Shown: piece after piece, positions 29,723-51,158 of the stretch
How positions within the stretch are numbered: position 1 is the stretch's first letter
Layout: every line of letters starts with the position of its first letter
Assembly: GCF_014189535.1 (NCBI RefSeq)
Contig: NZ_CP050308.1
Span: 3,833,001 to 3,897,000, forward strand
Reading direction: 5' to 3'
DNA from: Rhizobium lusitanum
Lineage (GTDB): Bacteria > Pseudomonadota > Alphaproteobacteria > Rhizobiales > Rhizobiaceae
Length of the DNA stretch: 64,000 nt
The notes under the pieces: model-generated
Database searches by the model: none
Seen by the model: only the letters and a program-made list of their open reading frames with translations
Told to the model about the DNA's origin: nothing
Program-made: the position numbers and the translations under genes

Positions 29723-29774
29723 TGATCCCTGGGTATCCAAACAGCCGGCAGTAAAGAGCGCTTGCATGGTCGAT

Positions 29775-32167: not shown

Positions 32168-32196
32168 ATGGGACCTTGTTGCCACTCTGCCGCATC

Positions 32197-32850
32197 TTAC
32201 CTGTTCAATCTATAATAGGCTTCAATCGCCTGCTCGACCTTGTCGAAAACCATAAGTCTGCCGTCGACGAGCACCATACCCTTATCGCAGTGCTTTTTGA
32301 TCATGCCCATACTATGCGAGATCATGATGATATCCGAATATTTTCGGCGGCTCTCGAAGGCAGCGCGGCAGCGTTCCTGAAAGCGGGCATCGCCTACGGA
32401 GAGAACTTCGTCGACCAGATAGCACTCGAATTCGATGGCCATGGAAAGCCCGAAGGCTAATCGCGCGCTCATGCCGGAGGAATAGGTGCGCACCGGCGCA
32501 TTGATATAGTCACCCAACTCCGCGAATTCTTCGACGAAACGCGAGACCCGCCTGACGTCCTCTCCATAGGCGCGGGCGACAAAGTGGAGATTTGCCTTGC
32601 CCGTCATGAAGGGGTTGAAGCCGCTGGCGAAACCCAGGGGCCAGGACACCCGTACGTCCTTGGTTATCTTGCCTGAATTTGCCAGCATCGTGCCGGCGAT
32701 CATCCGCATAGTCGTCGACTTTCCCGCGCCGTTGACGCCGAGAAGGCCATAGGAATAGCCCGACATGAATTCGCAGCTCACGCGATCCAGGATTACTTTC
32801 TTGCCATTTTGTGTCTTGAAGTGTTTCGACACGTTCTTGAAGCGGATCAT
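32197..32850 (-). CDS. kpsT: capsular polysaccharide ABC transporter ATP-binding protein
   Basis: A 217-residue ABC ATPase of the KpsT/BexA/CtrD group, the small ATPases of capsule exporters. Walker A is GVNGAGKSTT, the signature is YSSGMSARLAFG, Walker B is CYLVDEVLSVGD and the switch is MISHSM. It would power export of a lipid-linked polysaccharide through an ABC-2 permease. The cognate permease (kpsM) is not next to it and is not in the window. It lies between two KpsE-like genes. Confidence 0.9.
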   Translation of the reverse strand: MIRFKNVSKHFKTQNGKKVILDRVSCEFMSGYSYGLLGVNGAGKSTTMRMIAGTMLANSGKITKDVRVSWPLGFASGFNPFMTGKANLHFVARAYGEDVRRVSRFVEEFAELGDYINAPVRTYSSGMSARLAFGLSMAIEFECYLVDEVLSVGDARFQERCRAAFESRRKYSDIIMISHSMGMIKKHCDKGMVLVDGRLMVFDKVEQAIEAYYRLNR

Positions 32851-34159: not shown

Positions 34160-35225
34160 GTCGGCTTGCACTCGTGTTCAGCAATTTCGGCGCGGTTGGT
34201 TTCATCGCCTCACGCACATAATGATCAAAGATCAAATCTTCTTCGAGCATTAGTTCGGCAATATGCAACGAACGCAATCTCGTAGCAACGTCTTCAAGAG
34301 CGGTATGCCTTGACAGTAACGGAAGGTCGCCGATCGAAATGCCAAATAGTTCACCTATCGCGTCTTGAAAATGAATGCTGTTGGTATCGTGTCCGACCAC
34401 GGTGAAGCGGGAAAGCAGGTCGATCGCGGCTGCGACATCGCCGCGGGTTGCCAGTTGCTCCGGCGTGGTTGTGACGAGTTGGCGGGTGACGGGCGAGACC
34501 AGAACATTCGTGACGTTCTGCGGCGCTTTCTTCAGTGCGGTTTTAAGCGACGCATCGCTTTCGAGATCGACTTCCGCGAAGTGTTCCGCCGCGGGCGCCA
34601 GGATGATCTTGTCGCGGTCGCCGAAGAAGGAGATCTGGGTTTTCGCCATGCGCTTCAGGAGAAAGATACGCAGGGCCAGCTCGTAATAGGGATCGGTCAG
34701 CAGGACGATTGCCTTGAAGCCCTTGTCGAGGAACTCCTCATAGTTCCGCAACAGCAAGCGTCCGCTGATGTAAATCGACTTGATGGCATTGAGATGAAAG
34801 GCCTGAAGAGCCGTCTCATGGCCGAAGCGTTCCACCGACGACAGCTCATACTGAAAATGACGACCGCAGTGATAATCGAATTTGACCATCGGCAGGAGTT
34901 GCGTTTCCAGCCGCAAGATCTTCTGGGGGACCAGTTGTGATACTTGCGGTCGCCGATAGATCAGCAATCCCGACTTGGCGTCGTGAATCATGAGTGTACT
35001 GCGCTCGGCGAGATCAGGAATGATCTTCGTATCGAGTTTGAAGCCAACCCGGCCGTTCTCGTGGCGGCCCGAATCAATGACGGCCTGCTTGAGCTGATCG
35101 CAGGGCAGAACCATCAGGTCGCCGTTCGCATCCGACACCCTGATGTGCGGCATATCGGAGAACCCGTCCGGGATAAGATAACCCTCGAGAACCGTGCCGC
35201 GATCATATTCGAGATTAAACAGCAC
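34140..35225 (-). CDS. capsule-cluster protein of unknown function
   Basis: A 361-residue soluble protein that I do not recognise. It has no signal peptide, membrane segment or clear nucleotide-binding motif. Pieces such as AIVLLTDPYYELALRIFLLK and FTVVGHDTNSIHFQDAIGEL hint at an alpha/beta fold like that of sulfotransferases, but the phosphosulfate loop is not evident. GTG 35225 is chosen because GGAGG (35235-35231) lies 5 nt upstream; the frame extends to a TTG at 35279 without a ribosome site. It overlaps the kpsE gene, so a role in making or modifying the exported polysaccharide is likely. Confidence 0.65.
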   Translation of the reverse strand: MLFNLEYDRGTVLEGYLIPDGFSDMPHIRVSDANGDLMVLPCDQLKQAVIDSGRHENGRVGFKLDTKIIPDLAERSTLMIHDAKSGLLIYRRPQVSQLVPQKILRLETQLLPMVKFDYHCGRHFQYELSSVERFGHETALQAFHLNAIKSIYISGRLLLRNYEEFLDKGFKAIVLLTDPYYELALRIFLLKRMAKTQISFFGDRDKIILAPAAEHFAEVDLESDASLKTALKKAPQNVTNVLVSPVTRQLVTTTPEQLATRGDVAAAIDLLSRFTVVGHDTNSIHFQDAIGELFGISIGDLPLLSRHTALEDVATRLRSLHIAELMLEEDLIFDHYVREAMKPTAPKLLNTSASRHAQNSH

Positions 35226-35367
35226 GAATGCCTCCAGGCGTCCTGGCCCGTTCGGCGGGGAGGGCGCGTTGGCCTTCAAGAACCATCAAATTGTCGTCTG
35301 TGTCTTCAAACACGTTAAGATCGTCCCAAATGCCCTGGCGCTCGATGCCGGCATGCGTGTTCTCTTG

Positions 35368-36815: not shown

Positions 36816-37994
36816 TTGAATCGCGTAGCCGCGTTGTTAGTTTGCGTAGTTCTGGCGGGATGTAATTCCGTATCGAGCGAAGGGCCTTTGGCCGGTGCTA
36901 TTGATGGCGACGCGGGGCGGTCCAGTGCTGAGCTCGGGCGCAAGAATGCGGCTGTTTTCGATCTCGTCGATATTGATAGCCGCTCGGCGCGTCTCGTTTC
37001 CGACTATGTCTCCACCGCGCTCAACCGCCGGTTCGGCATCGGCGGCGGTGTCGGACGTGTGGTCATCGGTGTCGGCGATGCACTGCGGGTGACCATTTTC
37101 GAGGCAGGCTCCGACGGGTTGTTTTCGACGGCTCAATCGAAGCAGGTGTCTTTGGACATCGTCGTCCAGCCGGATGGAACGGCGGCTATTCCCTATGCTG
37201 GCTCTGTGAGGTTCGCGGGCAAGACGCTGGAGCAGGCGCGCAAGGCGGTTCTGGCCGCGTTGGCGACCAAGGCGGTCGAGCCTGATGTGATTGTCACGAG
37301 CACTGGTACGGCATCGCGCACAGTGACCGTTTCCGGGGCTGTCGGTCGTCCCTCGCTGGTTCCCCTAGACCTGACCAGCGAAAAGATCACGCAGGTGATC
37401 GCCAAGGCGGGCGGACCGGTCACTCAGCCTTATGAAACGTCTGTCACGCTGGTTCGCGGCAACAAGATCGGCACTGCACTTCTGAAGTCGATCGTCGAGC
37501 ACCCGTCCGAGGACATCTATGTCCAGCCCGGTGATCAGGTTTTCCTCGTCCGCGACCCGCGAACCTTTACCCTTATGGGCTCCGTCAAGGGTGACGGCCG
37601 TTTGGAATTCGGCGCCAATGACCTCAATCTTCTCGAAGCTGTCGCTTTGGGTCACGGCGCGACCGATGAATCGAGCAATGCCCAGGGGTTCTTCCTGTTC
37701 CGCTATGAAGAGCCGGATATCGTCAGGAGCCTGCTCGGCCCCGCCCGTTTCCAGGCGCTTCTGCAAAAGGGAATGGCGCCGGATTCCAAGGGCCGTTATC
37801 CGATCGTCTATCGATTTGACATGTCGCATCCCGACAGTCTCATCGTTGGGCAAACATTCCCGGTCAAGAGCCGTGACGTCATCTATGTATCGCGTCATCC
37901 CTCGGTCGACATCCGGAAGTTCCTGACGCTCGTCGGCTCCCCTCTTGGGATCGCCTCCCAGGGTGCCTCGACGGCAGCTAACCTAGGGCAGTAA
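36816..37994 (+). CDS. rkpU: outer-membrane polysaccharide export lipoprotein (Wza/KpsD type)
   Basis: A 392-residue OPX protein that would form the outer-membrane channel for capsule export. A lipoprotein signal peptide ends in VVLAGC, with lipidated C16. The Poly_export domain starts near GRVVIGVGDALRVTIFEAG, followed by soluble ligand-binding beta-grasp repeats (VTVSGAVGRPSLVPL and FTLMGSVKGDGRLEF). Length is close to Wza. The start is TTG 36816, set by GAGG 8 nt upstream. The symbol rests on its position directly upstream of rkpA, where Sinorhizobium has the export gene rkpU; the family call is firmer than the symbol. Confidence 0.75.
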   Translation: MNRVAALLVCVVLAGCNSVSSEGPLAGAIDGDAGRSSAELGRKNAAVFDLVDIDSRSARLVSDYVSTALNRRFGIGGGVGRVVIGVGDALRVTIFEAGSDGLFSTAQSKQVSLDIVVQPDGTAAIPYAGSVRFAGKTLEQARKAVLAALATKAVEPDVIVTSTGTASRTVTVSGAVGRPSLVPLDLTSEKITQVIAKAGGPVTQPYETSVTLVRGNKIGTALLKSIVEHPSEDIYVQPGDQVFLVRDPRTFTLMGSVKGDGRLEFGANDLNLLEAVALGHGATDESSNAQGFFLFRYEEPDIVRSLLGPARFQALLQKGMAPDSKGRYPIVYRFDMSHPDSLIVGQTFPVKSRDVIYVSRHPSVDIRKFLTLVGSPLGIASQGASTAANLGQ

Positions 37995-38367: not shown

Positions 38368-41300
38368 ATGACGATTGAAATTATCGGACGGGCGAGTATC
38401 GCCCCGGGGGCGGGTTCGATTGAAGAGCTGCAGCTCGTTCTCAAGGAAGGGCGTTGCACGGTTGGCCGCATTCCCGATGAACGCTGGGATCTAGCCCGTT
38501 TCTGGCATCCGGTCGTCGGCACTCAAGGAAAAACCTATAGCTACGCCGCCGGAATCATGGCGGACATCTACTCTTTCGACCCGACAGTCTTCGGCCTTTC
38601 GCAGCGCGAGGCGATGCAGATGGATCCGCAGCAGCGTATCCTTCTCAACCTCGTCTGGCGGGCTTTGGAAGATGCGAACCTGCCTGTCGATGGCTTTGAG
38701 GGTGAACGGGTCGGTGTCTATGTCGGCGCATCGTCGCTCGACCATGGCAATTTGACGGCCGAAGATCCGGCGTCTGGCAGCCCTTATTTCATGACCGGTA
38801 ACACGCTTTCGATCGTTGCCAACCGCATTTCACATATTTTCGGCCTGCAGGGGCCGAGCATGACGATCGACACGGCTTGTTCGTCGTCGCTTGTGGCGCT
38901 CGATCAGGCGGTGAGGGCTTTGGAGAGCGGTGACATCGACACTGCGATCGTCGGCGGCATCAACCTTCTGCTCCACCCGCTTTCCTTCGTCGGCTTTGCC
39001 CAAGCGCGTATGCTATCGCCGGAAGGCCTTTGTCGGGCCTACGACGATAATGGCCGTGGCTACGTCCGTGCGGAAGGCGGCGCGGCCATCATTCTGCGCA
39101 GGACCGATCGCGCCCTACGCGAAAAGGATCGCAGTTACGCCCGCATTCACGCGGTCGGGGTCAACTCCTCCGGCCGCACGAATGGTATCTCGCTGCCGTC
39201 GCGGGAGGCGCAAGCCGCTCTGCTGCGCTCGATCTACGAAGGCAAGAATATCGACGTCAACCGTATCGCCTTCATCGAAGGTCATGGCACAGGGACCAAG
39301 GTCGGTGATCCCGCCGAAGTCTGGGCGATCGGCGAAGTCATTGGCCGAAACCGACGGGCGCCCGTGCCGGTCGGCTCGATCAAATCCAATATCGGCCACA
39401 CCGAACCTGCCTCCGGCCTTTTCGGCCTGCTGAAGGCAATGATCGCGCTGGAGAACAATTTTCTGCCGGCGTCGCTGCATTTCGACCAGCCGAATGAGAC
39501 GATCGATTTCGAAGGATTGAACGTTCGGGTCAACACATCGGCCATCGAGCTTCTTCCGGCGAAACGCCCGCGCTTTGCGGGCATCAATTCTTTCGGCTTC
39601 GGCGGCACCAATGCCCATGTCGTCATCAGCGATCCCGACCCGATTGCTCCACCCGAGCCGCAGATGCGGGGCGACGGCACCATTTTCGTCGCGAGCGCAC
39701 ACACGGCCTCGGCACTTTCGAGGCTGCTTGAGGACTATAAGACCAGCCTGACCTATGCGGAGCCCAAGGAGGCCCGGCAGATCGTCGCGTCCGCCGCGGC
39801 CAATCGCGAGCCCTTGCGCCACCGTTTTGCGGCCAAAGCGAAGGATAGTGCGGCGGTACTAACGGCGATCGATGCGCATTTGTCCGGCGAGGCTTCCATC
39901 GGTGAAACCGGGGAAGTACCGGGCCAGACCGTCAAGATCGCCTTCGTCTTTTCCGGAAACGGCTCGCAATGGGCGGGAATGGGCGTCGAAGCCTATCAGG
40001 AAAACCGCCATTTCCGGCAATGTTTCCAATCATTCAGCGCGCTCTTCGAGTATTATATTGGCGAGAAGCTGACGGACATTCTGGTTTCGGACGGCCTGAG
40101 CTTGCGGCTTGCCGATACCAAGATCGCGCAGCCCCTGCTGTTTGCCGTTCAGGCTTCGCTGTCGGATTGCCTGGCGGCGCTTGGCGTGAAGCCCGATGTT
40201 GTCTTCGGCCACTCGGTCGGCGAAATCGCCGCCGCTTATGCGGCCAAGGCACTGACGGCTGCCGAAGCGGTCGCGATCGTCGCCAAGCGCTCGTTGCATC
40301 AGGATCTCCTTGCCGGCGCGGGCAAAATGGCTGCTGTCGTTCTCAACGAGGACGCCGCACTCGCTTTCGCTAAGTCGAATGGTCTCGACGAAATCTGCAT
40401 CGCAGCGATCAATGCGCCGAATTCGGTCACGATTTCCGGTCCTGTCCACGAGATCGAGGCGTTCAAGGATGCCGCCCGCAAAGCGCATATCGTCGCGCAT
40501 ATACTCGATATCAATTACCCCTTTCATCATCCGATCATCGACCGGGCGAAGGACGCATTCCTGGCGGATCTGCCGGATGTCGCGCCGGACGCTGGTGCGG
40601 GTTCGTTCATTTCAACGGTGACCGGTGAGCTCCATGACGGTCGTCTGCTGGATACCCAATATTGGTGGCGCAACGTTCGTGATCCCGTGCTTTTCAAGGT
40701 TGCCTGTCAGGCGGCGATGGCCATGGGATGCAACCTGTTCATTGAGATCGCACCGCGTCCAATCCTCTCGAACTATGTGATGGAGATCGCCAAGCAGGCG
40801 TCCGTCCAGGTGGTTGCGATACCGACACTGCTGCGCGAGGCGCCGGTCCCTGGCCGAGATCCCGTTTCGCAGTCCTTCGCGCGCGCTGTCGCCCATGGTG
40901 CGCCGGCACTGCGTTCGCGCGGAAGTGCGACGCGCAATGCCTTCGTCAAGCTGCCGCCCTTGCCGTTCGAACCGGTCGAGCTGCGTTCGCAGCCGACAAC
41001 TGATGAGATCGACATTTTCGGTCGCGACGGCAAGAGCCCCTACACCTTGCTCGGCTGGCGCACGGACCCCAACGGCTCCAGCTGGAAGAACCATCTGGAC
41101 GCGCATCTGTTCGCCGATCTTGCCGAGCATGTCGTTGATGGCAAGGCGATCCTGCCGGGCAGTGGCTTCATCGAGATCGCCGTTACCGCCATTCAGCAAT
41201 ATTACGAGGCCGATGAGGTCGAGATCGGCAACCTCGAGATCCTGAGGCCCCTGGAACTGCGCCAGGACCGCATGGTGGAGCTGTCGACCATCCTGTCGCC

Positions 41301-44300
41301 TGAGACCGGCAACATCGAGATCCGCTCGCGCGAGCGGCTGAGCAATGACGACTGGACCGTCCATGCCGTCGCACGCGGCCGCAAGCCGATCGACCTCGGC
41401 GTGATCGAGGAGCGAGCCCAGCGTCGGTCCGAGGGTCGGAAGTCCATCCTGACCTCCGAGAAGACTTACGACACAGCGGAGCGTTTCGGTCTGCAATACG
41501 GCCCACATTTCCAGCTTCTGTCGAAGGCTGTCGCTTTCGGCCATGACGTCATCGAAGTAGACCTAAAGCGGGCCGCTGCTCCCAGTCACCCTTTCGCGAG
41601 CTACAATCTCAATCCGATGTCGGTCGATGCGGCGTTCCATGGTCTCGTCGCGCTGTTCGAACAACTGTCCGGCGATGAGGCCGGCGCTCCCTATATTCCG
41701 GTTCGCTTCGGCACCGTGCGTGTTTCGGGCAAGGGAAGGCGGATCGCCAAAGCTGTCATAGAGATCGATCGGTTCAGCCGTAATTCGATCAAGGCCCGTT
41801 TCCGCATGCTGGATGCCGAAGGCGGTCAGATCGCCGTTTTTGACGACTGCCGCTTCCGCCGCACCTATCTGCGCCGTCATACAACGCTTGCCTCTGTCGC
41901 GTTCCACTATGAGACCGTGCCATCGGCAATCTTCGGACGTCGGCCTGGTTCGGACATGGCGCTGCCGGATGCCTCGGTGCTGCAAAACTCTTCGGGGACG
42001 CATCCGCTCAACAATGCGACACTGCTTCTCGATGCGGCCATCTATCGGGCATGCCATGAGATCGCGCTGGCGGTTGCGGGCAAAGGGGGCGTAGTCTCGC
42101 TTTCCGACCTTTCTGACGAAGCTGAGTTCCGGTCGTTCCTGGTCAACTGCCTCTATATTCTGGAGGATGCCGGTATTGCCTCGGCAGGGGACGACGAGTG
42201 GCGCGTGCCGCTCGATTTTACCTTTCCGCCAGTAAGCGAAGTCCTGCGGGAGCTTTACCATGAGGATGCAGGGCGGGTTGCCGAAGCCGTTCTCGTCAAC
42301 AATGCCTATCGTGAGGCGTTGGAGCGTCTCGCCACAATCCATAAACATGTCCTTGGCCAGTCACCAACCAAGACAGCCGTTCATGCGGTGGGCGGGGCGA
42401 CTCTGGAGCATGTGCTCATTCACGCTCCTCTGAGCGGCAAGCGACTTTTGATCATCGAAGAAGCGCTGACAGCATCCATGGAGGCCAATCCTGGTATCAT
42501 CGGCCATATTCTGGAGGCAGGTTCGACATCCGCGGCTTTCAGCCAACGGCTGGCCGCGATTGCCGCCAAGGCCGGTGCCGGTCTGATCATTGCCGAGCCA
42601 CGGGAGCAGGTGCGCCGCGCGCTTGAAATCGCCTTCGAGCGGGATGCGCATGTCATCGTCACGGAGCCTGCTAAGCTTGCAGATCAGCCGCTTGCGGATA
42701 TCATTGTCGCTTCCGGCGATCAGAGCCAGTATCTGCTGTCTCGCGATGAAGGGTTGAAAGCCGCCATCCGTGCCGCTGCGTTGCGCAATGCGCAGTTCCT
42801 GTTCGCCGATCGCGCTCCAAGCGCCTTTAATGATTTTGCCTTCGGTCTGTCGGACGGATGGTTTGCCGGCAGTCAGTCGCCGGAATTTCCCGTTGACCAG
42901 CTCGGCACGCCGCAACAGGTCGAGGATATCTTCGCAGCGCTTGGTTTCGGCAAGGCGGAAATCGAAGAGAAGGTCTTTCCGGAAGGCGTGCTGATCACGG
43001 CAAGGGCCGTGTCTGAACATCAAGCGGTCGACGCTGCCACCTTGCCAGATGTGGATGCACCGCTCCTCGTTCTGTCCGAGTGTGGGGCTCCTTCTATTGG
43101 GATCTCCAATACGCAGACCACCGTAATCGACGTCGGAACCACGCTTCTGGATCTCGGCGATGTCGTAACGTCGCTCGAACATCATCCGGTTCGCGTTCTC
43201 TACGCGGCGGAACGGGAGGGCGATCGTGACGCGTCCGACCTGACGCTGATACGGCTGCGGACGTTTGCGAAACTGGCGGATGCCTTGGCGCGTCGCGCTG
43301 ATGGCGACAGGCCACGACTGGTGATTATCGCTCCGGGCGGCTCGCCGCTGGCCAAGGAGCGGATTGATAGTGCCAATGCCGGCCTTTGGGCCTTCGCGCG
43401 CGTGCTGCAGAACGAATACGACGTCTTTGATGTGCATCTCCTGGATGCCGAAACGGATGACAAGCGGGCGATCGCGGCCGTGGAGACCATCCTTGTCGCC
43501 AAGACCGACAACAGGGAATGGGTGCTGGATCGGGCGACCGGCGAAGTCCGCGAGATTCGCGCTGCGGCCGGTCCTTTTGCCTCGACCGATATGAGCCGTC
43601 GTGATGTCTCGGCAGCCACCATCCGGCAGCATACGAGCGGCCGCGTCGATAGCGTTGCTTGGGAGGAGACGAACCCACCGTTGCCGTCTGATGGTGAGTT
43701 GATTGTCGCGGTCGAAGCCACCGGCCTCAATTTTCGCGATGTCATGTGGGCAATGGGCCTGCTTCCGGAAGAGGCGCTGGAGGACGGGTTTGCCGGCGCC
43801 ACGATCGGCATGGAATTCGCCGGCCGGGTTCTCGCGACTGGATCCGCCGTCGATGATATCCAGCCGGGCGACAAGGTTATGGGGATCGGCCCTGCTGCGT
43901 TTTCAACCCATGTGCGGGTGCGCCGCGATGGCGTGACCAAGCTGCCGGAAAAGATGGAGACCGTTGCCGCGGCTACGGTGCCTGTCGCCTTCCTGACTGC
44001 TTATTATGCAATGGTCGAGCTCGGGCGTATTCAACCTGGCGAGACGATCCTGATCCATGGCGCGGCCGGCGGTGTCGGCCTCGCTGCGCTTCAGATTGCC
44101 AAGCTCAAGGGCGCCAAGGTGATCGCCACCGCGGGCACGGTCGAGAAGCGCCGTTTCCTGGATATGCTGGGAGCTGACCATGTGCTTGATTCCCGCTCAT
44201 TGGATTTTGTTGCGGGCGTGCGCCATCTCACGCGCGGCGAAGGTGTCGATCTCGTACTGAATTCTCTGTTTTCCGAAGCGATGGAGCGCAGCATCGAGCT

Positions 44301-45837
44301 GGTCAAGCCGTTCGGACGCTTCCTGGAATTGGGCAAGCGCGACTATTACTCCGACCGCAAGATCGGCCTACGTCCCTTCCGCCGCAACATCAGCTATTTC
44401 GGCATCGACGCCGACCAGTTGCTGGTCAGCGCTCCGGCCCTCACGAAGCGGATTTTTGCCGAGATTGGTGAACTCTTTGCCGCCGGCAAGCTGACGCCGC
44501 TGCCCTATCGTGCCTTTGGCTACGACGAGATCGGCAGTGCTTTCCGGCTGATGCAGAACGCCGGTCATATCGGCAAGATTGTCGTCCGCCCGCCTGTTCT
44601 GGGTATCGACCGTGTCTTGCCGGCTCCCGCCAAATCGCTGCGGCTCGACTCTGATGGTATTTTCCTCGTAGCAGGCGGCATTGGCGGCTTCGGTCTCGCC
44701 GCCGCCGATTGGCTGGTCTCCAAGGGTGCGCGCCGCATCGCGCTGTGCTCGCGCCGGGGCGTAGCCGATGAGGAGACGCTGAAAGCTGTTGGTGAATGGG
44801 AAAAGAAAGGCGCGGTGACAACGCTGCATGCCTGCGACATCACCAATGAGGCGGCCGTCGAATCCCTGCTTGGCCTGCTTCGCTCCGAAGGTGCGCTGAG
44901 GGGTGTTGTTCATGCCGCGATGGTTCTGGACGATGCGCTGCTCGCCAACCTGACGCCGGAGCGCAACAGGCCTGTCATCGATGTGAAGGTTCGCGGCGCT
45001 GGTGTTCTCGATCGTTTGACCAGATACGACCGTCTCGATCTGTTCCTGCTGTTTTCCTCGGCGACGACCATGCTCGGTAATCCGGGGCAGGCGAATTATG
45101 TTGCCGCGAACGGCTATCTCGAAGGCTTGGCGCGCGCGCGCCGCGCTGCCGGGCTACCGGCGCTCGCTGTCGGCTTCGGCGCTATTGCCGACAAGGGATT
45201 CCTGGCCCGCAACGGCGAGGTCAATGAACTCCTGTCCAAGCGTATCGGCAAGGCCGCCTTGAAGGCACGCACTGCACTGGAGCAGGTCGAGCGCTACATG
45301 CTTGCCGATACCGGCAAGGTCGAGGCCGCCGCCGTCATGATCGCTGAAATCGATTGGAGCGCCGCCCGTATGCTGCCGATCGCCGGTCGGTCACTATTTG
45401 AGCCGCTGATGCGCCATGCGGGCAGCCATCAAACCCTGAACGACGGCGATACGATCGATCTCAGGGAACTGATCAAAGGCAAGTCCGAGGACGAGGCGCA
45501 GGCCGCTCTCCACACGCTCGTCGCCTCTGAAATCGCCGCGATCCTGCGGGTGACGGAAGATACGATCACGCCTGACAAGGTGTTGAAGGACATCGGCCTC
45601 GACAGTTTGATGGCGATGGAGCTTGGAATGAGCTTCCAGCAGAAGACCGGCTTCGACATTCCCTTGAGCGGTGTCGGGGAGGGGACAACGGTGAGTGATG
45701 TCGTCAGCCGCTTGTGCGATCGCGTCATGAACCGTAGCGGCGAGGAGGCGACAAATTCAGCGGTGGGTGAGGATCAGGTGGTCAGCCGTCTGGTGCAGAG
45801 CCATTCTCCGCAACAGAAGAAGGCCGCGCAGTCATGA
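38368..45837 (+). CDS. rkpA: multidomain reducing polyketide/fatty acid synthase RkpA
   Basis: A 2,489-residue type I megasynthase that builds a long reduced acyl chain for the K-polysaccharide pathway. Domain order is KS (about 1-430; C171 in DTACSSSL, H306 in HGTGT, H344 in GHTEPASG), AT (about 520-830; S616 in GHSVGE), DH (about 900-1180; H921 in HVVDGKAILPGSG), a long degenerate region (about 1200-1650), ER (about 1770-2080; HGAAGGVGLAALQIAK), KR (about 2090-2300; GGIGGFGLAAADW and Y2244 in GQANYVAANGY) and ACP (S2413 in GLDSLMAMEL). There is no thioesterase, so release needs another enzyme. This is the architecture of highly reducing iterative PKSs. It overlaps rkpG by 4 bp. Confidence 0.93.
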   Translation: MTIEIIGRASIAPGAGSIEELQLVLKEGRCTVGRIPDERWDLARFWHPVVGTQGKTYSYAAGIMADIYSFDPTVFGLSQREAMQMDPQQRILLNLVWRALEDANLPVDGFEGERVGVYVGASSLDHGNLTAEDPASGSPYFMTGNTLSIVANRISHIFGLQGPSMTIDTACSSSLVALDQAVRALESGDIDTAIVGGINLLLHPLSFVGFAQARMLSPEGLCRAYDDNGRGYVRAEGGAAIILRRTDRALREKDRSYARIHAVGVNSSGRTNGISLPSREAQAALLRSIYEGKNIDVNRIAFIEGHGTGTKVGDPAEVWAIGEVIGRNRRAPVPVGSIKSNIGHTEPASGLFGLLKAMIALENNFLPASLHFDQPNETIDFEGLNVRVNTSAIELLPAKRPRFAGINSFGFGGTNAHVVISDPDPIAPPEPQMRGDGTIFVASAHTASALSRLLEDYKTSLTYAEPKEARQIVASAAANREPLRHRFAAKAKDSAAVLTAIDAHLSGEASIGETGEVPGQTVKIAFVFSGNGSQWAGMGVEAYQENRHFRQCFQSFSALFEYYIGEKLTDILVSDGLSLRLADTKIAQPLLFAVQASLSDCLAALGVKPDVVFGHSVGEIAAAYAAKALTAAEAVAIVAKRSLHQDLLAGAGKMAAVVLNEDAALAFAKSNGLDEICIAAINAPNSVTISGPVHEIEAFKDAARKAHIVAHILDINYPFHHPIIDRAKDAFLADLPDVAPDAGAGSFISTVTGELHDGRLLDTQYWWRNVRDPVLFKVACQAAMAMGCNLFIEIAPRPILSNYVMEIAKQASVQVVAIPTLLREAPVPGRDPVSQSFARAVAHGAPALRSRGSATRNAFVKLPPLPFEPVELRSQPTTDEIDIFGRDGKSPYTLLGWRTDPNGSSWKNHLDAHLFADLAEHVVDGKAILPGSGFIEIAVTAIQQYYEADEVEIGNLEILRPLELRQDRMVELSTILSPETGNIEIRSRERLSNDDWTVHAVARGRKPIDLGVIEERAQRRSEGRKSILTSEKTYDTAERFGLQYGPHFQLLSKAVAFGHDVIEVDLKRAAAPSHPFASYNLNPMSVDAAFHGLVALFEQLSGDEAGAPYIPVRFGTVRVSGKGRRIAKAVIEIDRFSRNSIKARFRMLDAEGGQIAVFDDCRFRRTYLRRHTTLASVAFHYETVPSAIFGRRPGSDMALPDASVLQNSSGTHPLNNATLLLDAAIYRACHEIALAVAGKGGVVSLSDLSDEAEFRSFLVNCLYILEDAGIASAGDDEWRVPLDFTFPPVSEVLRELYHEDAGRVAEAVLVNNAYREALERLATIHKHVLGQSPTKTAVHAVGGATLEHVLIHAPLSGKRLLIIEEALTASMEANPGIIGHILEAGSTSAAFSQRLAAIAAKAGAGLIIAEPREQVRRALEIAFERDAHVIVTEPAKLADQPLADIIVASGDQSQYLLSRDEGLKAAIRAAALRNAQFLFADRAPSAFNDFAFGLSDGWFAGSQSPEFPVDQLGTPQQVEDIFAALGFGKAEIEEKVFPEGVLITARAVSEHQAVDAATLPDVDAPLLVLSECGAPSIGISNTQTTVIDVGTTLLDLGDVVTSLEHHPVRVLYAAEREGDRDASDLTLIRLRTFAKLADALARRADGDRPRLVIIAPGGSPLAKERIDSANAGLWAFARVLQNEYDVFDVHLLDAETDDKRAIAAVETILVAKTDNREWVLDRATGEVREIRAAAGPFASTDMSRRDVSAATIRQHTSGRVDSVAWEETNPPLPSDGELIVAVEATGLNFRDVMWAMGLLPEEALEDGFAGATIGMEFAGRVLATGSAVDDIQPGDKVMGIGPAAFSTHVRVRRDGVTKLPEKMETVAAATVPVAFLTAYYAMVELGRIQPGETILIHGAAGGVGLAALQIAKLKGAKVIATAGTVEKRRFLDMLGADHVLDSRSLDFVAGVRHLTRGEGVDLVLNSLFSEAMERSIELVKPFGRFLELGKRDYYSDRKIGLRPFRRNISYFGIDADQLLVSAPALTKRIFAEIGELFAAGKLTPLPYRAFGYDEIGSAFRLMQNAGHIGKIVVRPPVLGIDRVLPAPAKSLRLDSDGIFLVAGGIGGFGLAAADWLVSKGARRIALCSRRGVADEETLKAVGEWEKKGAVTTLHACDITNEAAVESLLGLLRSEGALRGVVHAAMVLDDALLANLTPERNRPVIDVKVRGAGVLDRLTRYDRLDLFLLFSSATTMLGNPGQANYVAANGYLEGLARARRAAGLPALAVGFGAIADKGFLARNGEVNELLSKRIGKAALKARTALEQVERYMLADTGKVEAAAVMIAEIDWSAARMLPIAGRSLFEPLMRHAGSHQTLNDGDTIDLRELIKGKSEDEAQAALHTLVASEIAAILRVTEDTITPDKVLKDIGLDSLMAMELGMSFQQKTGFDIPLSGVGEGTTVSDVVSRLCDRVMNRSGEEATNSAVGEDQVVSRLVQSHSPQQKKAAQS

Positions 45838-47255
45838 CGCAGGATGCCAACGACGATACTCCCGCGGGCGACCGGAAGAGCAGCCTGCTGGAGCAAATGC
45901 GTCGCGTCGGCGAATCCTCGGGACGCAATCGGGCCGAACGATTGAACAAGCAGACGCAGCAGCCGGTGCGCCAAGCCACGCGCTTTGAAGATTTACCGGA
46001 ATACAAGCGTGTGATGACGCAGAAGATTGCCGGCGAAATGGCGGGTATCGCCAATCCCTTCTATCGCTCGCATGATGTTGCCGCTGGTGCTACGACCCGC
46101 ATGGGCGGACGCGAGTTCATCAACTTCGCCTCCTACGACTATCTGGGCACCAACACCGACCCGCTGGTGACGGCCGGCGCCAAGGAGGCCATCGACCGCT
46201 TCGGCATCTCGGCTTCCGCGAGCCGTCTCGTCGCTGGAGAGCGGCCGGTGCATATCGAGTTGGAGCAGCGGCTTGCCAAGCTCTATGGCGTCGATGCCGC
46301 CGTCTGTTTTGTCAGCGGCTACCTGACCAATGTCGCGACGATCGGCTGCCTGATGGGCCCGCAGGACCTCGTCATTCACGACGAGTTCATCCACAACAGC
46401 GTGCTTGCCGGCGTCAAGCTTTCCGGCGCGGCGCGGCGTCTGTTCAAGCACAATGATGCCGAAAATCTCGAAAGCATCCTGAAGACGCTGTCTTCCGATT
46501 TTCGTCGTATCCTGGTGGTCGTCGAAGGTGTCTACTCCATGGACGGCGATGTCGCCGACCTGCCGGCATTGCTGGAGCTGAAGGCGCGTTATGGCTTCTG
46601 GCTGATGGTGGACGAAGCGCATGCGCTCGGCATCCTGGGCGCGAACGGCCGTGGCACTTTCGAACATTTCGGGCTCGATCCACGCGATGTCGACATTTGG
46701 ATGGGAACGCTCTCCAAGACGACGTCGAGCTGTGGCGGCTATATCGCCGGCAGCAGCGCACTCGCTGATGTCCTGAAAGCAGAAGCGGGCGGCTTCGTCT
46801 ACAGCGTCGGCTTGGCACCGGTTCTGGCAGCAGCGGCTATCGCCGGTCTGCAAATACTGGAATCGGAGCCAGAGAGGGCCGCGCGGCTCCGGCACAACGG
46901 TAATCTGTTCCTGGAATGCGCCAGGCAGGCGGGTCTCGATACTGGCCTGAGCCTCGGCTTCTCGGTCGTTCCCGTTCTCGTCGGCGATTCGTTGCGCGCC
47001 GTACAGCTTTCCAACGATCTGCTGAGTGAGGGCATCAATGTTCTGCCCATCATTCATCCGGCCGTGCCCGAGGGCATGGCGCGCCTGCGCTTCTTTATCA
47101 CCTGCGATCACACCGAAGAGCAAATTCGTCATTCCGTCGCCGTAACTACCGGAAAACTCAAAGATTTACAGGATCGGAATTTCGGCCTAGGGTCCATCGA
47201 CATGGACAAGGTGATGCAATTGTTGCCGACGCGCCAAACCTCCGGCGCATCATAA
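45834..47255 (+). CDS. rkpG: alpha-oxoamine synthase RkpG (AONS/SPT family)
   Basis: A 473-residue PLP enzyme of the family of 8-amino-7-oxononanoate synthase and serine palmitoyltransferase. These enzymes condense an acyl thioester with an amino acid, with loss of CO2, to give an alpha-amino ketone. It has FASYDYLGTNTDP, the glycine-rich SASASRLVAGER, DEFIHNSVLAG, VDEAHALGILG and GTLSKTTSSCGGY with the PLP lysine K295. An about 70-residue extension precedes the catalytic core. The ATGA overlap couples it to rkpA, so RkpA-bound acyl chains are the likely substrate. Confidence 0.92.
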   Translation: MTQDANDDTPAGDRKSSLLEQMRRVGESSGRNRAERLNKQTQQPVRQATRFEDLPEYKRVMTQKIAGEMAGIANPFYRSHDVAAGATTRMGGREFINFASYDYLGTNTDPLVTAGAKEAIDRFGISASASRLVAGERPVHIELEQRLAKLYGVDAAVCFVSGYLTNVATIGCLMGPQDLVIHDEFIHNSVLAGVKLSGAARRLFKHNDAENLESILKTLSSDFRRILVVVEGVYSMDGDVADLPALLELKARYGFWLMVDEAHALGILGANGRGTFEHFGLDPRDVDIWMGTLSKTTSSCGGYIAGSSALADVLKAEAGGFVYSVGLAPVLAAAAIAGLQILESEPERAARLRHNGNLFLECARQAGLDTGLSLGFSVVPVLVGDSLRAVQLSNDLLSEGINVLPIIHPAVPEGMARLRFFITCDHTEEQIRHSVAVTTGKLKDLQDRNFGLGSIDMDKVMQLLPTRQTSGAS

Positions 47256-47273
47256 CGTCAAGGCGATCATTTC

Positions 47274-48128
47274 ATGCATGTTATCGTCACCGGAGGCTCA
47301 AGCGGGATCGGTCTGGCGATAGCCAAGCTCTATGCTGCCAGGGGGACACGCGTTTCCCTGCTCGCCCGTCACTCCGGGCGTCTTGACCAGGCACGCGGCG
47401 AGCTGACCGCCATCTCCAGCGTCGACCCTTCCCACATCCAGATTGCCTCCGTCGATGTCGCATCCGCCAGTCAGACCTTGGAAGCCGTCGGACTCTGCGA
47501 ACGCACCTTCGGCCCTTGCGACATCCTTATCGCCTCGGCCGGGATTGTCGAACCCTCTGCTTTCGACGCGATGCCGGCGGCGGCCTTCGACGAACAGATC
47601 ACGACCAATCTCCTCGGCACCGCGAACGTGGTGCGCGCGGTCTACAAGGGCATGAAGGCGCGTCGCGGCGGCAAGATCATGATGATCTCCTCGGGTGCCG
47701 CGCTGATCGGCATTTACGGCTACACCGCCTATTGCGCCTCCAAGTCGGCGCTGGCCGGCTTTGCCGAAGCCTTGAGCGCTGAGGCGGGTGTCTCAGGTGT
47801 TCGCGTCACCATCTGTTTTCCGCCGGATACGCTTACGCCGCAATATCGCCGTGAGATGTCGATGCGGCCCGCCGAAGCGGAGCTTATGATGGGCGCTGTC
47901 AAACCCTGGAGCGCCGACGCGGTGGCGGCGAGGATCGTTCGAGGCCTCGATCGTGGCAAGGCTCGAATCCATTTCGGATTGTCACTGACGGCGCTCGCCT
48001 ATTTCGGCCCGTTGATAAAACCGCCGCTGATGTGGTGGTTTTCCCGCAAAATGAGAAAAATAACTGGGCAAGGACAAGAAGTAAGTCTTGTAGACGCGGT
48101 CGATGGAGGCTTTGATCGCGGGAAGTGA
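47274..48128 (+). CDS. rkpH: short-chain reductase RkpH, 3-ketosphinganine reductase-like
   Basis: A 284-residue SDR. The NADP site is VTGGSSGIGLAIAKLYAARG, the serine is in MMISSGAAL, and the active-site pair is Y153-C-A-S-K157. After it, VTICFPPDTLTPQYRRE closely resembles the PPDT-TP region of eukaryotic 3-ketodihydrosphingosine reductases. A hydrophobic C-terminal segment (FGPLIKPPLMWWF) may bind the membrane. Its neighbours make an alpha-amino ketone, so reduction of that ketone to an amino alcohol is the likely reaction. It starts 18 bp after rkpG. Confidence 0.9.
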   Translation: MHVIVTGGSSGIGLAIAKLYAARGTRVSLLARHSGRLDQARGELTAISSVDPSHIQIASVDVASASQTLEAVGLCERTFGPCDILIASAGIVEPSAFDAMPAAAFDEQITTNLLGTANVVRAVYKGMKARRGGKIMMISSGAALIGIYGYTAYCASKSALAGFAEALSAEAGVSGVRVTICFPPDTLTPQYRREMSMRPAEAELMMGAVKPWSADAVAARIVRGLDRGKARIHFGLSLTALAYFGPLIKPPLMWWFSRKMRKITGQGQEVSLVDAVDGGFDRGK

Positions 48129-48198: not shown

Positions 48199-49851
48199 TT
48201 GGATTGGGGCCTTTGTTCGTTCCGATGTTCGGAAGAAACGGGGGCAGATGGCAGGTATTTGGACGATATAGTTTTGAAACTTCATGATTTTCCAGCTCTT
48301 CTGACGGTTGCCTGCTTCGCATTCTCCTGCGTCGTCATATTCCTGACCGATCCCTTTGCGATGCCCGCCGCCATCAACAGGCAAAATCGTACCGAGAGAA
48401 GCTTGAGGCGGCGAGCCTTTGAATGGGCTGCAAAAATTCCGGTCATCGCTCTGGTCTATGCTGGTTTCTTCGCTATTTCCTGGCGCCCGCTTTATGGCGC
48501 GCAGGGTGCGATTAGCTTTTTCGTCATCTTCACCGGCATTTCGCGCGCAAAATTCCAGTTCATCCGCGAGCCCCTGGTCTTTTCCGATATCGCCCTGGTG
48601 GTCGACGTTTTCAAATACAAGGAAATTTTCTACGCGAGTTCCCTGAACGTCGTCTTCTGGATCATCGCGCTTTCGTATGTGTTCGGTGTCAGCGGTCTTT
48701 ACATGTATTTCGAGCCGTCGATCCTGCCCGACAGCAACGGCTTCCTGTGGGTTCTCGTGATGCTGGCCGTCGCCTTCGGTCCCTGGCTTGCCTTGTTCAG
48801 CCGCATCGTCAGCGATCCGGTCTGTCGTTTCACACAGAAGGTTCTGGGCAAGGTCGACGTCAAGAAGGATACGGTCAGGTTCGGCACGTTCGAATCTGTC
48901 GTCTTTCATTTCGTCATCTGGGTCGGCGTCAAGCGTGAGGCGATTGTGACGCAGCTGTCGGAGCGCCTCATCTCCGTCCTTCACGAGCTTTGGGAGCATG
49001 GCGACGACGAGCCGCTGATCGTCGTCTGGCAATCCGAATCCTTCATCGACCTTCGACATTTCGGCGTGGAGAGCGTCAAGCTGCCCAATCTCGACCGGTT
49101 GCGGGAACAGGCGGCGCAATGGGGGCGGATGACCAGCGTCTTCGAGGGCGGCTATACGCTGCGCACAGAATTCGCCGTATTGAGCGGCCTGTTGCCCGAA
49201 AACGTCCATATCGACGCGAGCTATCCCTATCTGCGCGCCAGCCACTACAAGGATGTCGTCTGGCCGGCGCGGCTGAAGAAAGTCGGCTGGAAGACGCAGT
49301 TCATCCACCCCTACGACAGAACCTTCTTCCTGCGCCACAAAGCCATGCCGCAGCTCGGCTTCGACCGGATGATAATGCTGGACGAATTCGATCACAGGCC
49401 TGATCGCGATGGACCCTATGTCAGCGATCTGGCGCTGACGAAGAGCGTGATTCGCGCGATCGACGAAGAGGGCACGGCAAAGAATTTCGTCTTCGTCGCC
49501 TCCATGGCGAATCATGGCCCCTGGGAGCCCGGTCGCTGCGGCGATCTGACGGATCCGGTGGAGATTTATAGCGAATTGCTGATGCGCGCCGACCACGCGC
49601 TCGGTAATCTCGCTCATCATCTCGACAGGCTCGATCGTCCTGTCTGGCTGCTGTTCTATGGCGATCACGCGCCGCTGCTGAAGGCTTTCGCCGATCCCTT
49701 CCCGGATCCGCGCACGGATTACATCGTCGTTCCGCTCGGCCGGGCGCGGGCGCATTCGCAAAAGCCGATGCCGGCGCAGGAAGAGGCGCCCTGGAACCTC
49801 ATCGGCACCTTGCTGCGCTATGCCGGTCTCAGCACGGAGGTCCCGGAGTGA
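48199..49851 (+). CDS. rkpI: LTA-synthase/sulfatase-superfamily membrane protein RkpI
   Basis: A 550-residue protein with about four N-terminal membrane helices and a C-terminal alkaline-phosphatase-superfamily domain. It has VVWQSESFIDLRHFGV, EGGYTLRTEFAVLSGLLP (T320 aligns with the catalytic threonine of lipoteichoic-acid synthases), FVASMANHGPWEP and FYGDHAPLL for metal binding. Relatives transfer phosphoglycerol or phosphoethanolamine at the outer face of the inner membrane, so head-group transfer to the lipid or polysaccharide is possible. The start is uncertain: TTG 48199 has a weak AGAG site and TTG 48259 is an alternative. It overlaps rkpJ by 4 bp. Confidence 0.82.
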   Translation: MDWGLCSFRCSEETGADGRYLDDIVLKLHDFPALLTVACFAFSCVVIFLTDPFAMPAAINRQNRTERSLRRRAFEWAAKIPVIALVYAGFFAISWRPLYGAQGAISFFVIFTGISRAKFQFIREPLVFSDIALVVDVFKYKEIFYASSLNVVFWIIALSYVFGVSGLYMYFEPSILPDSNGFLWVLVMLAVAFGPWLALFSRIVSDPVCRFTQKVLGKVDVKKDTVRFGTFESVVFHFVIWVGVKREAIVTQLSERLISVLHELWEHGDDEPLIVVWQSESFIDLRHFGVESVKLPNLDRLREQAAQWGRMTSVFEGGYTLRTEFAVLSGLLPENVHIDASYPYLRASHYKDVVWPARLKKVGWKTQFIHPYDRTFFLRHKAMPQLGFDRMIMLDEFDHRPDRDGPYVSDLALTKSVIRAIDEEGTAKNFVFVASMANHGPWEPGRCGDLTDPVEIYSELLMRADHALGNLAHHLDRLDRPVWLLFYGDHAPLLKAFADPFPDPRTDYIVVPLGRARAHSQKPMPAQEEAPWNLIGTLLRYAGLSTEVPE

Positions 49852-51158
49852 TGGCTTCCGGGCAGGGGACTGATGACGGGCCGGAGACTACGGCGCGCGT
49901 CTTTCTCTTCTTGCAGGGGCCGTCATCGCCGCTTTTTGTCGAAATCGCGAGGGGGCTGGAGGCCGCAGGCTGCCGCTGCATCCGAATCAACCTCAATCCC
50001 GGCGACTGGATGTTCTGGCATCGCCGCGGCACGTTCAACTATCGCGGCGGTTTCCCCGGCTGGCGTGATTATGTTTGCCGCCGAATCGAGGAGGACAAGA
50101 TCACCGACGTGATTCTTCTCGGCGAGGAGCGCCCCTATCATCAGGTGGCGATCGAAGAGGCGCGCAGGCGGGGTGCCAAGATCAATATCGTCGAGATGGG
50201 ATATTTGCGGCCGGATTGGGTGACGCTTGAGCGGGACGGAATGTCGTCCAATTCGCGCTTTCCCGTTGATCCACAACATATTCTGCAAGCGGCAGTGGGG
50301 CTGCCCGAGCCGGATTGGGCACGCCGGTTCAGCCACAGCTTCCTTGCCGAGGCGGCCTATGATCTTCTCTACAATCTCCCGAATGCCTTCCTCTGGTTCC
50401 TTTATCCCGGCTACCAGCGCCATGCGCTCTATCATCCGCTGGTGGAATATGCGGGTTGGCTCCGCCGCCTGCCGTCGGGCGGCAGGCGCGCGAGGGAGGC
50501 CGACCGGACGATTGAGAGCCTGATCGCCGATGGGACATGCTTCTTCGTCTACCCCTTGCAGCTTCAGACGGATTATCAGTTGCGCTCGCATTCTCTCTTC
50601 CAGCAGCAGCAGGATGCCATAAGGCAGATCATACGATCCTTCGCCACTCATGCGGCTCCCGACACGCATCTGGTGGTCAAGCTTCATCCACTTGATAATG
50701 GGCTAGTCGATTGGAAGCACTATATCGACGGCGTCTGCGCTTCCCATGCCGTTTCGTTGCGCGTCCATTTCATTGACGGCGGCGATCTCGAAAAATTGAT
50801 CGCGGCGAGCCGTGGCATGGTGACGGTCAATTCCACGGCAGCACTTTCGGCGCTGCAAGCCGACAGGCCGGTGAAGGTTCTCGGAGCGGCCATCTACGAT
50901 ATCGAAGGTTTGACCGACCAGAAGCCGCTGGACCTCTTCTGGGTGCATCCCGCAGCGCCATCGGCCGATATTCGCGGTGCATTTCTGAAATTGCTGGCCG
51001 CCTCCATCCAGGTTCGTGGGAATTTCTACTCCCGTGCCGGTGCGCGCGCGGCAGCGGCGGCGATTGTGGACCGGCTCCTGGCACGAACCGTCAACTTGCC
51101 GGAGGCTTATATGGACCCACCACCACGGCAAAAGCCGGTGAAGATCGATATTCCCTAG
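49848..51158 (+). CDS. rkpJ: capsule polysaccharide biosynthesis/export protein RkpJ (KpsS/KpsC-like)
   Basis: A 436-residue cytosolic protein of the Capsule_synth family. KpsC and KpsS build the poly-Kdo linker on the lipid anchor in E. coli group 2 capsules. Typical sections are VFLFLQGPSSPLFVEIARGL near the start, RINLNPGDWMFW, FFVYPLQLQTDYQLRSHS, HLVVKLHPLDNG and GMVTVNSTAALSAL near the nucleotide-sugar site. It is the last gene of the rkpAGHIJ unit, coupled to rkpI by a 4-bp overlap. A Kdo-type transferase or linker role is inferred from the family. Confidence 0.85.
   Translation: MMASGQGTDDGPETTARVFLFLQGPSSPLFVEIARGLEAAGCRCIRINLNPGDWMFWHRRGTFNYRGGFPGWRDYVCRRIEEDKITDVILLGEERPYHQVAIEEARRRGAKINIVEMGYLRPDWVTLERDGMSSNSRFPVDPQHILQAAVGLPEPDWARRFSHSFLAEAAYDLLYNLPNAFLWFLYPGYQRHALYHPLVEYAGWLRRLPSGGRRAREADRTIESLIADGTCFFVYPLQLQTDYQLRSHSLFQQQQDAIRQIIRSFATHAAPDTHLVVKLHPLDNGLVDWKHYIDGVCASHAVSLRVHFIDGGDLEKLIAASRGMVTVNSTAALSALQADRPVKVLGAAIYDIEGLTDQKPLDLFWVHPAAPSADIRGAFLKLLAASIQVRGNFYSRAGARAAAAAIVDRLLARTVNLPEAYMDPPPRQKPVKIDIP

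Follow-up and report, generated by a model that had tools for sequence, protein, structure and literature searches.

We analyzed a window of 64,000 nucleotides from Rhizobium lusitanum (contig NZ_CP050308.1; C5:3833001-3897000 of a 6.94-Mb genome in five contigs; "the window" denotes this whole stretch) and focused on its genes rkpA, rkpG, rkpH, rkpI, and rkpJ. The order of these genes, with rkpU beside them, and their Pfam matches are those of the rkp-1 capsule gene cluster. Most likely the gene set builds a sphingolipid-like amino-alcohol lipid that holds the capsule sugar.

In the proposed pathway rkpAGHIJ would provide the lipid acceptor of a capsule exported by an ATP-binding cassette (ABC) transporter. 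RkpA would assemble an acyl chain, mostly saturated, on the acyl carrier protein (ACP) domain at its own C terminus. RkpG would then condense this chain with a small amino acid (Ser and Ala are the likeliest candidates) under decarboxylation and so release it as a long-chain amino ketone. This would be converted to a sphingoid-like amino alcohol by RkpH, or in other families perhaps by another short-chain dehydrogenase/reductase (SDR) encoded near kpsS. Where RkpI is present it may move a phosphoglycerol head from phosphatidylglycerol (PG) to the sphingoid-like lipid; this step is the least certain one, and its product would be the sphingoid counterpart of lyso-PG, the acceptor of KpsS in Escherichia coli. 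The KpsS-like RkpJ together with a KpsC would add a linker of beta-linked 3-deoxy-D-manno-octulosonic acid (Kdo), on which the capsule would be built before export. An earlier note on this DNA had proposed a sphingoid-type pathway from the first three genes; RkpI and RkpJ, absent from that reading, could give the phosphoglycerol head and the Kdo linker. Domains, catalytic residues, gene coupling, fusions, and co-occurrence were read from sequence, and from these we infer every reaction and product. Taken as a whole, the explanation is in our view slightly favored.

Domain Organization of RkpA and Its Coupling to RkpG

The rkpA gene (38368..45837, plus strand) encodes a protein of 2489 amino acids which, from Pfam matches and active-site patterns, is a predicted single-module iterative type I polyketide synthase (PKS)/fatty acid synthase (FAS). 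It contains, all on the plus strand, a ketosynthase (38374..39486; PF00109/PF02801, residues 3-373; DTACSSS) with a ketosynthase extension (residues 375-480; Pfam), an acyltransferase (39943..40839; PF00698, residues 526-824; GHSVGE), a dehydratase (41068..41862; PF21089/PF14765, residues 901-1165; HVVDGKAILP), an enoylreductase (43690..44586; PF08240/PF00107/PF13602, residues 1775-2073; HGAAGGVG), a ketoreductase (44656..45189; PF08659, residues 2097-2274; GGIGGFG), and an acyl carrier domain (45520..45711; PF00550, residues 2385-2448; GLDSL). The stretch between dehydratase and enoylreductase (41905..43617, residues ~1180-1750) had no Pfam match, and these ~600 residues probably represent a degenerate region of the FAS/PKS type. 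All ten simple active-site patterns for the six domain types were matched. For relatives of RkpA the motif counts rest on one strict pattern per site, and misses (e.g., KS_H1 in 45/67) were not taken as lost sites. The Pfam scan found no thioesterase in RkpA, and the chain would therefore stay on the ACP. The order of the matched domains given in the earlier note and the missing thioesterase were thereby confirmed. The genes rkpABCDEF were found to be one gene, rkpA (PMC7902896), and the acyl carrier domain presumably is the former RkpF.

The sequence ATGA at 45834-45837 is common to the rkpA stop and the rkpG start. Of the 80 named loci, 74 had RkpA immediately 5' of RkpG, which is far beyond chance; the 80 loci are the best of at least 574 confirmed stretches, are not random, and over-represent close relatives. 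Three of the 80 loci are from Planctomycetota and nested in the RkpG clade, and carry an AMP-binding ligase and an ACP in place of the PKS, with the ACP joined to the synthase on its N-terminal side. In L118:2-2485 a single open frame, which runs off the contig, encodes the ligase end together with the ACP and the synthase, while L093:7900-11359 and L107:3395-6744 encode ACP-synthase fusions with a separate ligase gene upstream. For the remaining exceptions, L083, L101, and L109, no acyl-making gene was found among the scanned upstream neighbors.

The L093 fusion, used as the query of a protein search, found 7930 proteins. PF00550 occurred together with PF00155 in 119 of the 120 listed, and PF00501 was present in addition in 51 of those 120 (counted by eye); the list is ordered by likeness to a fusion and hence biased toward fusions. 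Open frames of ~2,990 amino acids containing RkpG in two genomes (G226 and G205) were considered as possible RkpA-RkpG fusions, and on inspection neither was one.

The adjacency of RkpA and RkpG and the fusions of ligase, ACP, and synthase argue strongly for an ACP-bound chain that is released as an amino ketone. The suggestion that RkpG releases the RkpA chain had been made from the sequence of this locus; it gains strength from the pairing in other loci and from natural ACP fusions within the RkpG clade, and we consider such release by RkpG probable.

RkpG Forms a Separate Clade of Alpha-Oxoamine Synthases

The rkpG gene (45834..47255, plus strand) encodes a predicted alpha-oxoamine synthase of 473 amino acids (PF00155, E 1.4e-48), with the pyridoxal phosphate (PLP) lysine K295 encoded at 46716-46718. 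In the alignment K295, H187, D260, H263, R417, and R419 were invariant in 81/81 RkpG rows. RkpG thus has all of the family residues, i.e., the catalytic His, Asp, His, and Lys and the carboxylate-binding Arg. The earlier assignment of RkpG to this family, with its PLP lysine at K295 and a 4-bp overlap with rkpA, was correct in each of these points.

In a tree of 142 rows the 81 RkpG rows formed a single clade (SH-aLRT 98), in which Rhizobium sp. SEMIA4064 was closest to the RkpG of the window (91%). Serine palmitoyltransferase (SPT; 20 rows, support 100), BioF (12 rows), ALAS (12 rows), and KBL (4 rows) were found as separate groups, with their mutual order not resolved by the tree; the SPT rows were drawn from a search with NF047603, and two of the 20 were above the cut-off of that model. 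Twelve lower-scoring proteins of the same taxonomic order attach to the RkpG clade (branch 100); 11 of them make up its sister group, while L147 lies closer to RkpG.

RkpG scored under every listed NCBIfam cut-off. For bioF the score was 359.6 bits with a cut-off of 426, for KBL 240/493, and for ALAS 244/339. None of the SPT models was reached (NF047600, 299.5/640 bits; NF047599, 270.2/500; NF047603, 221.1/670), and the alphaproteobacterial SPT model had zero matches in the window genome at E 1e-80. We rejected RkpG as an SPT because of its separate clade and its scores under the curated NCBI cut-offs. By sequence, RkpG belongs to the alpha-oxoamine synthases, within which its clade is distinct from SPT, BioF, ALAS, and KBL.

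Residue 130 is Ser in RkpG (81/81), SPT (20/20), and BioF (12/12); ALAS and KBL have Thr (12/12) and Val (4/4), respectively. In a profile alignment S130 of RkpG aligned with Val79 of ThAOS, a position described as a key determinant of amino-acid selectivity, where 8-amino-7-oxononanoate synthase and SPT are listed with Ser, ALAS with Thr, and KBL with Val (PMC11906848). S130 therefore points to the use of Ser or Ala and not to a strict Gly enzyme; it does not separate Ser from Ala.

RkpH and Other Reductases

The rkpH gene (47274..48128, plus strand) encodes an SDR (adh_short) of 284 amino acids resembling 3-ketodihydrosphingosine reductase (KDSR). It contains FPPDTLTP, encoded at ~47817-47840, and FPPDT-x-TP at residues 182-189 did not vary among close orthologs aligned in 15 rows. 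This agrees with the pattern (F/Y)PPDTxTP, which we take to be a KDSR marker. The closest RkpH, with 91% identity, is named from Agrobacterium rhizogenes. Several RkpH orthologs in UniRef are named 3-dehydrosphinganine reductase while most are just named SDR, and one ortholog at NCBI is named after follicular variant translocation protein 1, presumably a KDSR name. Since 3-dehydrosphinganine reductase is already found among the database names, the annotation idea for RkpH is not new. In a comparison of the RkpH profile to PDB, the solved KDSR TSC10 (8jat) had the longest aligned span (2-232) of the 39 matches.

The KDSR-like reductase was found in Rhizobiaceae-type loci only. The SDR located near KpsS outside the Rhizobiaceae has PG[YF][VI] at the motif site in 13/13 rows, i.e., it belongs to another subfamily, and its identity to RkpH was 31% in a profile comparison. 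Six further loci were fetched around RkpI from the 19 genomes with RkpI. This second type of SDR adjoins the KpsS-like gene in five of these and is located ~1.5 kb away in the sixth (L193). If it is the reductase, the step would be shared and the enzyme exchanged.

RkpI and RkpJ

The rkpI gene (48199..49851, plus strand) encodes a predicted membrane protein whose PF00884 domain is of the alkaline-phosphatase superfamily; the start is listed as TTG and the true start is uncertain. By sequence its best match in PDB was GacH (E 2e-6), followed by a lipoteichoic acid primase (E 5.5e-4). We made an AlphaFold model from a 16-row alignment (mean pLDDT 78.6), and the top seven Foldseek rows for this model were LtaP, GacH, and LtaS. 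Residues E280, T320, H370, R379, H439, D489, and H490 were invariant in the 16 rows and aligned with GacH; we take them to be the metal, nucleophile, and glycerol-phosphate residues known from LtaS and GacH. The sequence and the model make a phosphoglycerol transferase the likeliest reading of RkpI. Five core helices were found, with loop charges that are ambiguous as to the membrane side.

The rkpJ gene (49848..51158, plus strand) overlaps rkpI by 4 bp and encodes a KpsS-like protein (PF05159, E 5.5e-92, 309 bits). On the NCBIfam KpsS model (NF050054) RkpJ scored 214.5 bits vs. a cut-off of 600.

Co-occurrence with Capsule Genes and Variation of the Locus

We searched 297 genomes of the order for RkpG (at least 408 bits) and PF05159 (E 1e-10 or better). 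RkpG was found in 73 and PF05159 in 92 genomes; 62 had both, 11 RkpG alone, 30 PF05159 alone, and 194 neither. PF05159 was thus present in 62/73 genomes with RkpG vs. 30/224 without (Fisher p 1.7e-29, kinship not corrected). The three other sampled genomes of the genus of the window had neither RkpG nor PF05159.

RkpI was found at E 1e-50 in 20/297 genomes, and 19 of these matches were full-length (at least 321 bits). PF05159 was present in each of the 19 genomes; 18 of them had RkpG and the remaining one (G086) the sister oxoamine synthase. RkpI was found in 0/27 PF05159 genomes without either oxoamine synthase. Among PF05159 genomes, RkpI was present in 18/62 with RkpG vs. 1/30 without (Fisher p 0.005). 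A single genus (g37) supplies ten of the 19 genomes and a second one (g85) four, which means fewer independent events. In the 18 genomes with both, RkpI was located <5 kb from RkpG in four, 17-32 kb away in three, >600 kb away in two (G142 and G235), and on another contig in nine. These scattered distances imply that the association is not explained by close linkage alone.

Long flanks were available for 57 named loci; a recognized capsule gene was present in 46 of these, a KpsS-like gene in 38, an RkpH-like SDR in 35, and RkpI in 27. RkpH, RkpI, and RkpJ occurred together in 17/21 Rhizobiaceae-type loci vs. 6/36 elsewhere. In a locus from Stappiaceae (L067) rkpA and rkpG are followed on the opposite strand by an SDR, one gene resembling KpsC, and two resembling KpsS; the 580-amino acid protein beside KpsS matches PF05159 and is KpsC-like, a label that here and for the window genome is given from two PF05159 stretches and length. 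The locus with the sister oxoamine synthase (L149:5496-13957 in G086) has an SDR, this synthase, a KpsC-like gene in which PF05159 occurs twice, a PF00884 protein that the RkpI profile matches, a KpsS-like gene, and another SDR; RkpA was not matched in the 16 kb examined. A clear RkpA-like PKS was located upstream in L147 only of the 12 sister-group loci, most of which had few other genes. The commonest core consists of an oxoamine synthase, an SDR, and KpsS/KpsC, and the acyl source (PKS, or ligase and ACP) and RkpI vary. Clustering of open reading frames for recurrent unknown neighbors gave export proteins, antisense frames, and flanking genes (judged by eye; few were scanned further).

We consider it rather probable that the RkpG product is used as a capsule anchor or carrier. 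The addition of a phosphoglycerol head by RkpI falls a little short of an even balance.

Alternative Explanations

Several observations speak against the proposed pathway or parts of it. For RkpG, residue 101 is Tyr in 81/81 rows, as in the sister rows (12/12) and in SPT in 2/20, while the other 46/48 rows of the characterized groups have Asn; residue 402 is Asn in 78/81 RkpG rows and Tyr or Trp (one Leu) in the characterized groups. Together Tyr101 and Asn402 suggest that the substrates could be unusual. For RkpH, TSC10 ranked 23rd of the 39 PDB matches by E-value, below general SDRs, and its placement with KDSR comes from the motif and database names and not from rank. For RkpI, the TM-scores of the top seven rows were modest (0.35-0.39 by query and 0.44-0.54 by target length), and phosphoethanolamine transferases (MCR-1, EptC, and BcsG) appeared from Foldseek rank 8, so RkpI is possibly a transferase of phosphoethanolamine or another phospho-head. 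Its known relatives act outside the inner membrane. By contrast, KpsS acts at the cytoplasmic face of this membrane (PMC7694667). A partial RkpI match (175 bits) was seen in a genome without RkpG and PF05159 (G069), which we left out as a general PF00884 match. At the threshold used RkpI was missing from 44 of the 62 genomes with RkpG and PF05159, and the phosphoglycerol step cannot therefore be general. PF05159 was absent from 11/73 genomes with RkpG, and 11/57 loci with full flanks had no capsule gene matched by the profiles used. A single obligatory module is opposed by these loci without a capsule gene, the RkpG genomes without PF05159, and the missing RkpI.

The sphingoid-type pathway put forward in the earlier note is supported in part, namely in its release chemistry and in a strong link to capsule genes. 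RkpG is not an SPT in the tree or at the NCBI cut-offs, and the RkpH motif is not general. The resemblance of RkpH to KDSR, also claimed there, is supported by the SDR family, the motif, and the UniRef names; it is weakened by PG[YF][VI] in other loci and by the low rank of KDSR.

The anchor could instead be ordinary (lyso)PG with a special hydroxy-fatty acid, in which case RkpA would make the chain and RkpG and RkpH would only transfer or tailor it. We find this unlikely. The many genomes without RkpI fit such an anchor, as does the use of (lyso)PG in E. coli (PMC7694667). Against it, RkpG has the full PLP and carboxylate apparatus (K295, H187, D260, H263, and R419) needed for amino-acid condensation and not for plain acyl transfer, and the oxoamine synthases of the clade that are fused to ACP fit thioester condensation. 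The capsule of Sinorhizobium meliloti 1021 is reported to have a phospholipid anchor, and this anchor has reportedly been described in part as phosphoglycerol and a hydroxy-fatty acid with nitrogen unmentioned. Such a structure would be in line with RkpI, and it would favor ordinary PG and speak against a sphingoid-like anchor.

It is similarly unlikely that RkpA, RkpG, and RkpH produce a sphingoid-like membrane or signal lipid that is needed indirectly for export and is not joined to the polysaccharide. The RkpG genomes lacking PF05159 and the full-flank loci lacking a recognized capsule gene would agree with this. The enrichment of PF05159 in genomes with RkpG argues against it, as do KpsS- and KpsC-like neighbors in several arrangements.

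Less likely still, the amine of the RkpG ketone is later lost or replaced, or an uncommon amino acid is used, for which CqsA and SxtA are precedents, and the end product is not sphingoid. W289, which marks the clade in 81/81 RkpG rows, and N402 are consistent with this, and no amino-alcohol product is known; the Ser/Ala-type gate S130 and an SDR that is adjacent or nearby point instead to the sphingoid-like amino alcohol.

The reading of RkpG as the biotin enzyme 8-amino-7-oxononanoate synthase, suggested by its best NCBIfam match (TIGR00858), by many database names, and by a bioB gene in the window genome with no oxoamine synthase nearby, is hardly tenable and was rejected, since the KBL of the genome (645 bits on the KBL model) obtains 366.8 bits on the same bioF model, which makes the lower, sub-cut-off score of RkpG generic, since RkpG and BioF are separate tree groups, since better BioF candidates (404-423 bits, just under the cut-off) are found alongside RkpG orthologs in G117, G174, G196, and G272, and since the neighbors of RkpG are a PKS and capsule genes. 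This bioB is located at G000:C5:1514856-1515767 (L120, L122).

Capsule-Export Genes in the Window Genome

Upstream of rkpA an RkpU-like outer-membrane polysaccharide export protein (Poly_export, SLBB; PF02563, E 1.6e-12) is encoded at 36816..37994 on the plus strand. An RkpU-like gene was found just 5' of rkpA, on either strand, in 15/21 Rhizobiaceae-type loci. Upstream of rkpU, on the minus strand, a single KpsT-like ABC transporter ATPase (32197..32850; PF00005, E 8.6e-12) is located between two KpsE/BexC-like export proteins, copy 1 at 32864..34171 (TIGR01010, 229 bits) and copy 2 at 30902..32185 (213 bits), both under the cut-off of 437.5; this doubling seems unusual for a capsule exporter. 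Beside these genes a protein of 379 amino acids without a Pfam match is encoded at 34140-35279, and near them a protein of 742 amino acids with two family-2 glycosyltransferase stretches at 27539-29767, both on the minus strand. By eye, nuo genes are located downstream of rkpJ.

A second capsule region is found on another contig of the same genome (L123, G000:C4:868000-887900). It encodes two proteins with PF05159, one KpsC-like (711 amino acids, two stretches of the domain) and the other a second KpsS-like protein (483 amino acids), along with an ABC ATPase.

Comparison with Known Systems

The rkp-1 cluster has reportedly been described, in a title from 1993, as a FAS-like capsule cluster. 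Sinorhizobium meliloti and S. fredii have the same genes in the same order (rkpU, rkpAGHIJ) and the same hypothesis of a lipid carrier or anchor (PMC3557214; PMC4881576; PMC7902896). In this account a lipophilic molecule, possibly the carrier or anchor of the K-polysaccharide, is apparently produced through rkpA and then modified and transported through rkpGHIJ (PMC3557214), and much the same view is given in PMC4881576. The rkp-1 cluster has been reported also from Rhizobium tropici CIAT 899 and PRF 81. In their available portions the rkp-1 accounts give no chemistry for RkpG, RkpH, or RkpI (PMC3557214; PMC4881576; PMC7902896), and the window is, by its closest RkpG and RkpH matches, from a Rhizobium and not from a Sinorhizobium. 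The genes, the capsule role, the lipid hypothesis, and the name 3-dehydrosphinganine reductase for RkpH orthologs are thus already known. The idea of a lipid carrier or anchor, on which the earlier note had also drawn, has a strong link to capsule genes and is not novel. Within the open-licence literature, a coverage outside which the main rkp papers lie, we found neither a sphingoid-type product, as the earlier note had stated, nor the ACP-fusion argument, nor a phosphoglycerol step for RkpI. If the proposed pathway is true, the lipid that anchors the rhizobial K antigen gets a name, bacteria have another route to sphingoid bases beside SPT, and type I PKSs are tied to capsule anchoring in several bacterial groups.

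The wcb capsule cluster of Burkholderia (WcbR, WcbT) has been treated as orthologous to rkp, with RkpA and WcbR in one ketosynthase group (PMC3908369). Two other Burkholderia loci (L104 and L116) have the order RkpI-RkpA-RkpG, and no RkpH-type SDR was found at threshold within the stretch examined. In bacterial SPT with AcpR and an acyl-AcpR synthetase, too, a dedicated ACP supplies an oxoamine synthase (PMC9386255). Unlike this system, RkpG is in a separate clade and its ACP is part of a type I PKS.

The same three kinds of enzyme, a PKS, an oxoamine synthase, and a ketoreductase, are found in the fungal pathways to fumonisin and sphingofungin. A reducing PKS without thioesterase, an oxoamine synthase, and an SDR in one cluster, which presumably define the fumonisin type, are all present in the window, and the likeness would be one of function. 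Among PDB relatives, SphA matches RkpG at E 3.2e-34, and bacterial oxoamine synthases are closer (E 4.8e-71 to 8s1y). The fungal and rkp assemblies are likely convergent.

The phosphoglycerol transferases LtaS, LtaP, and GacH are the best sequence and fold matches of RkpI, with the catalytic residues aligned. Unlike these, RkpI has a KpsS-like gene as its neighbor, in the capsule locus of a Gram-negative bacterium. It is a tentative and rather doubtful extension that, in Proteobacteria and perhaps in other groups, a widespread and so far unrecognized type of bacterial capsule has as its anchor a dedicated sphingoid-phosphoglycerol and not lyso-PG. An ACP-fed non-SPT oxoamine synthase would make its long-chain amino alcohol, the LtaS-like RkpI would add the phosphoglycerol head, and KpsS/KpsC would prime it with Kdo. 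In E. coli KpsS puts the first Kdo on (lyso)PG and KpsC extends it (PMC7694667). The rkp loci resemble the group 2 capsule system of E. coli in that RkpJ belongs to PF05159 and KpsC-like genes are found in L067 and on C4 of the window genome. Whereas E. coli uses (lyso)PG, the rkp loci have a dedicated lipid pathway attached.

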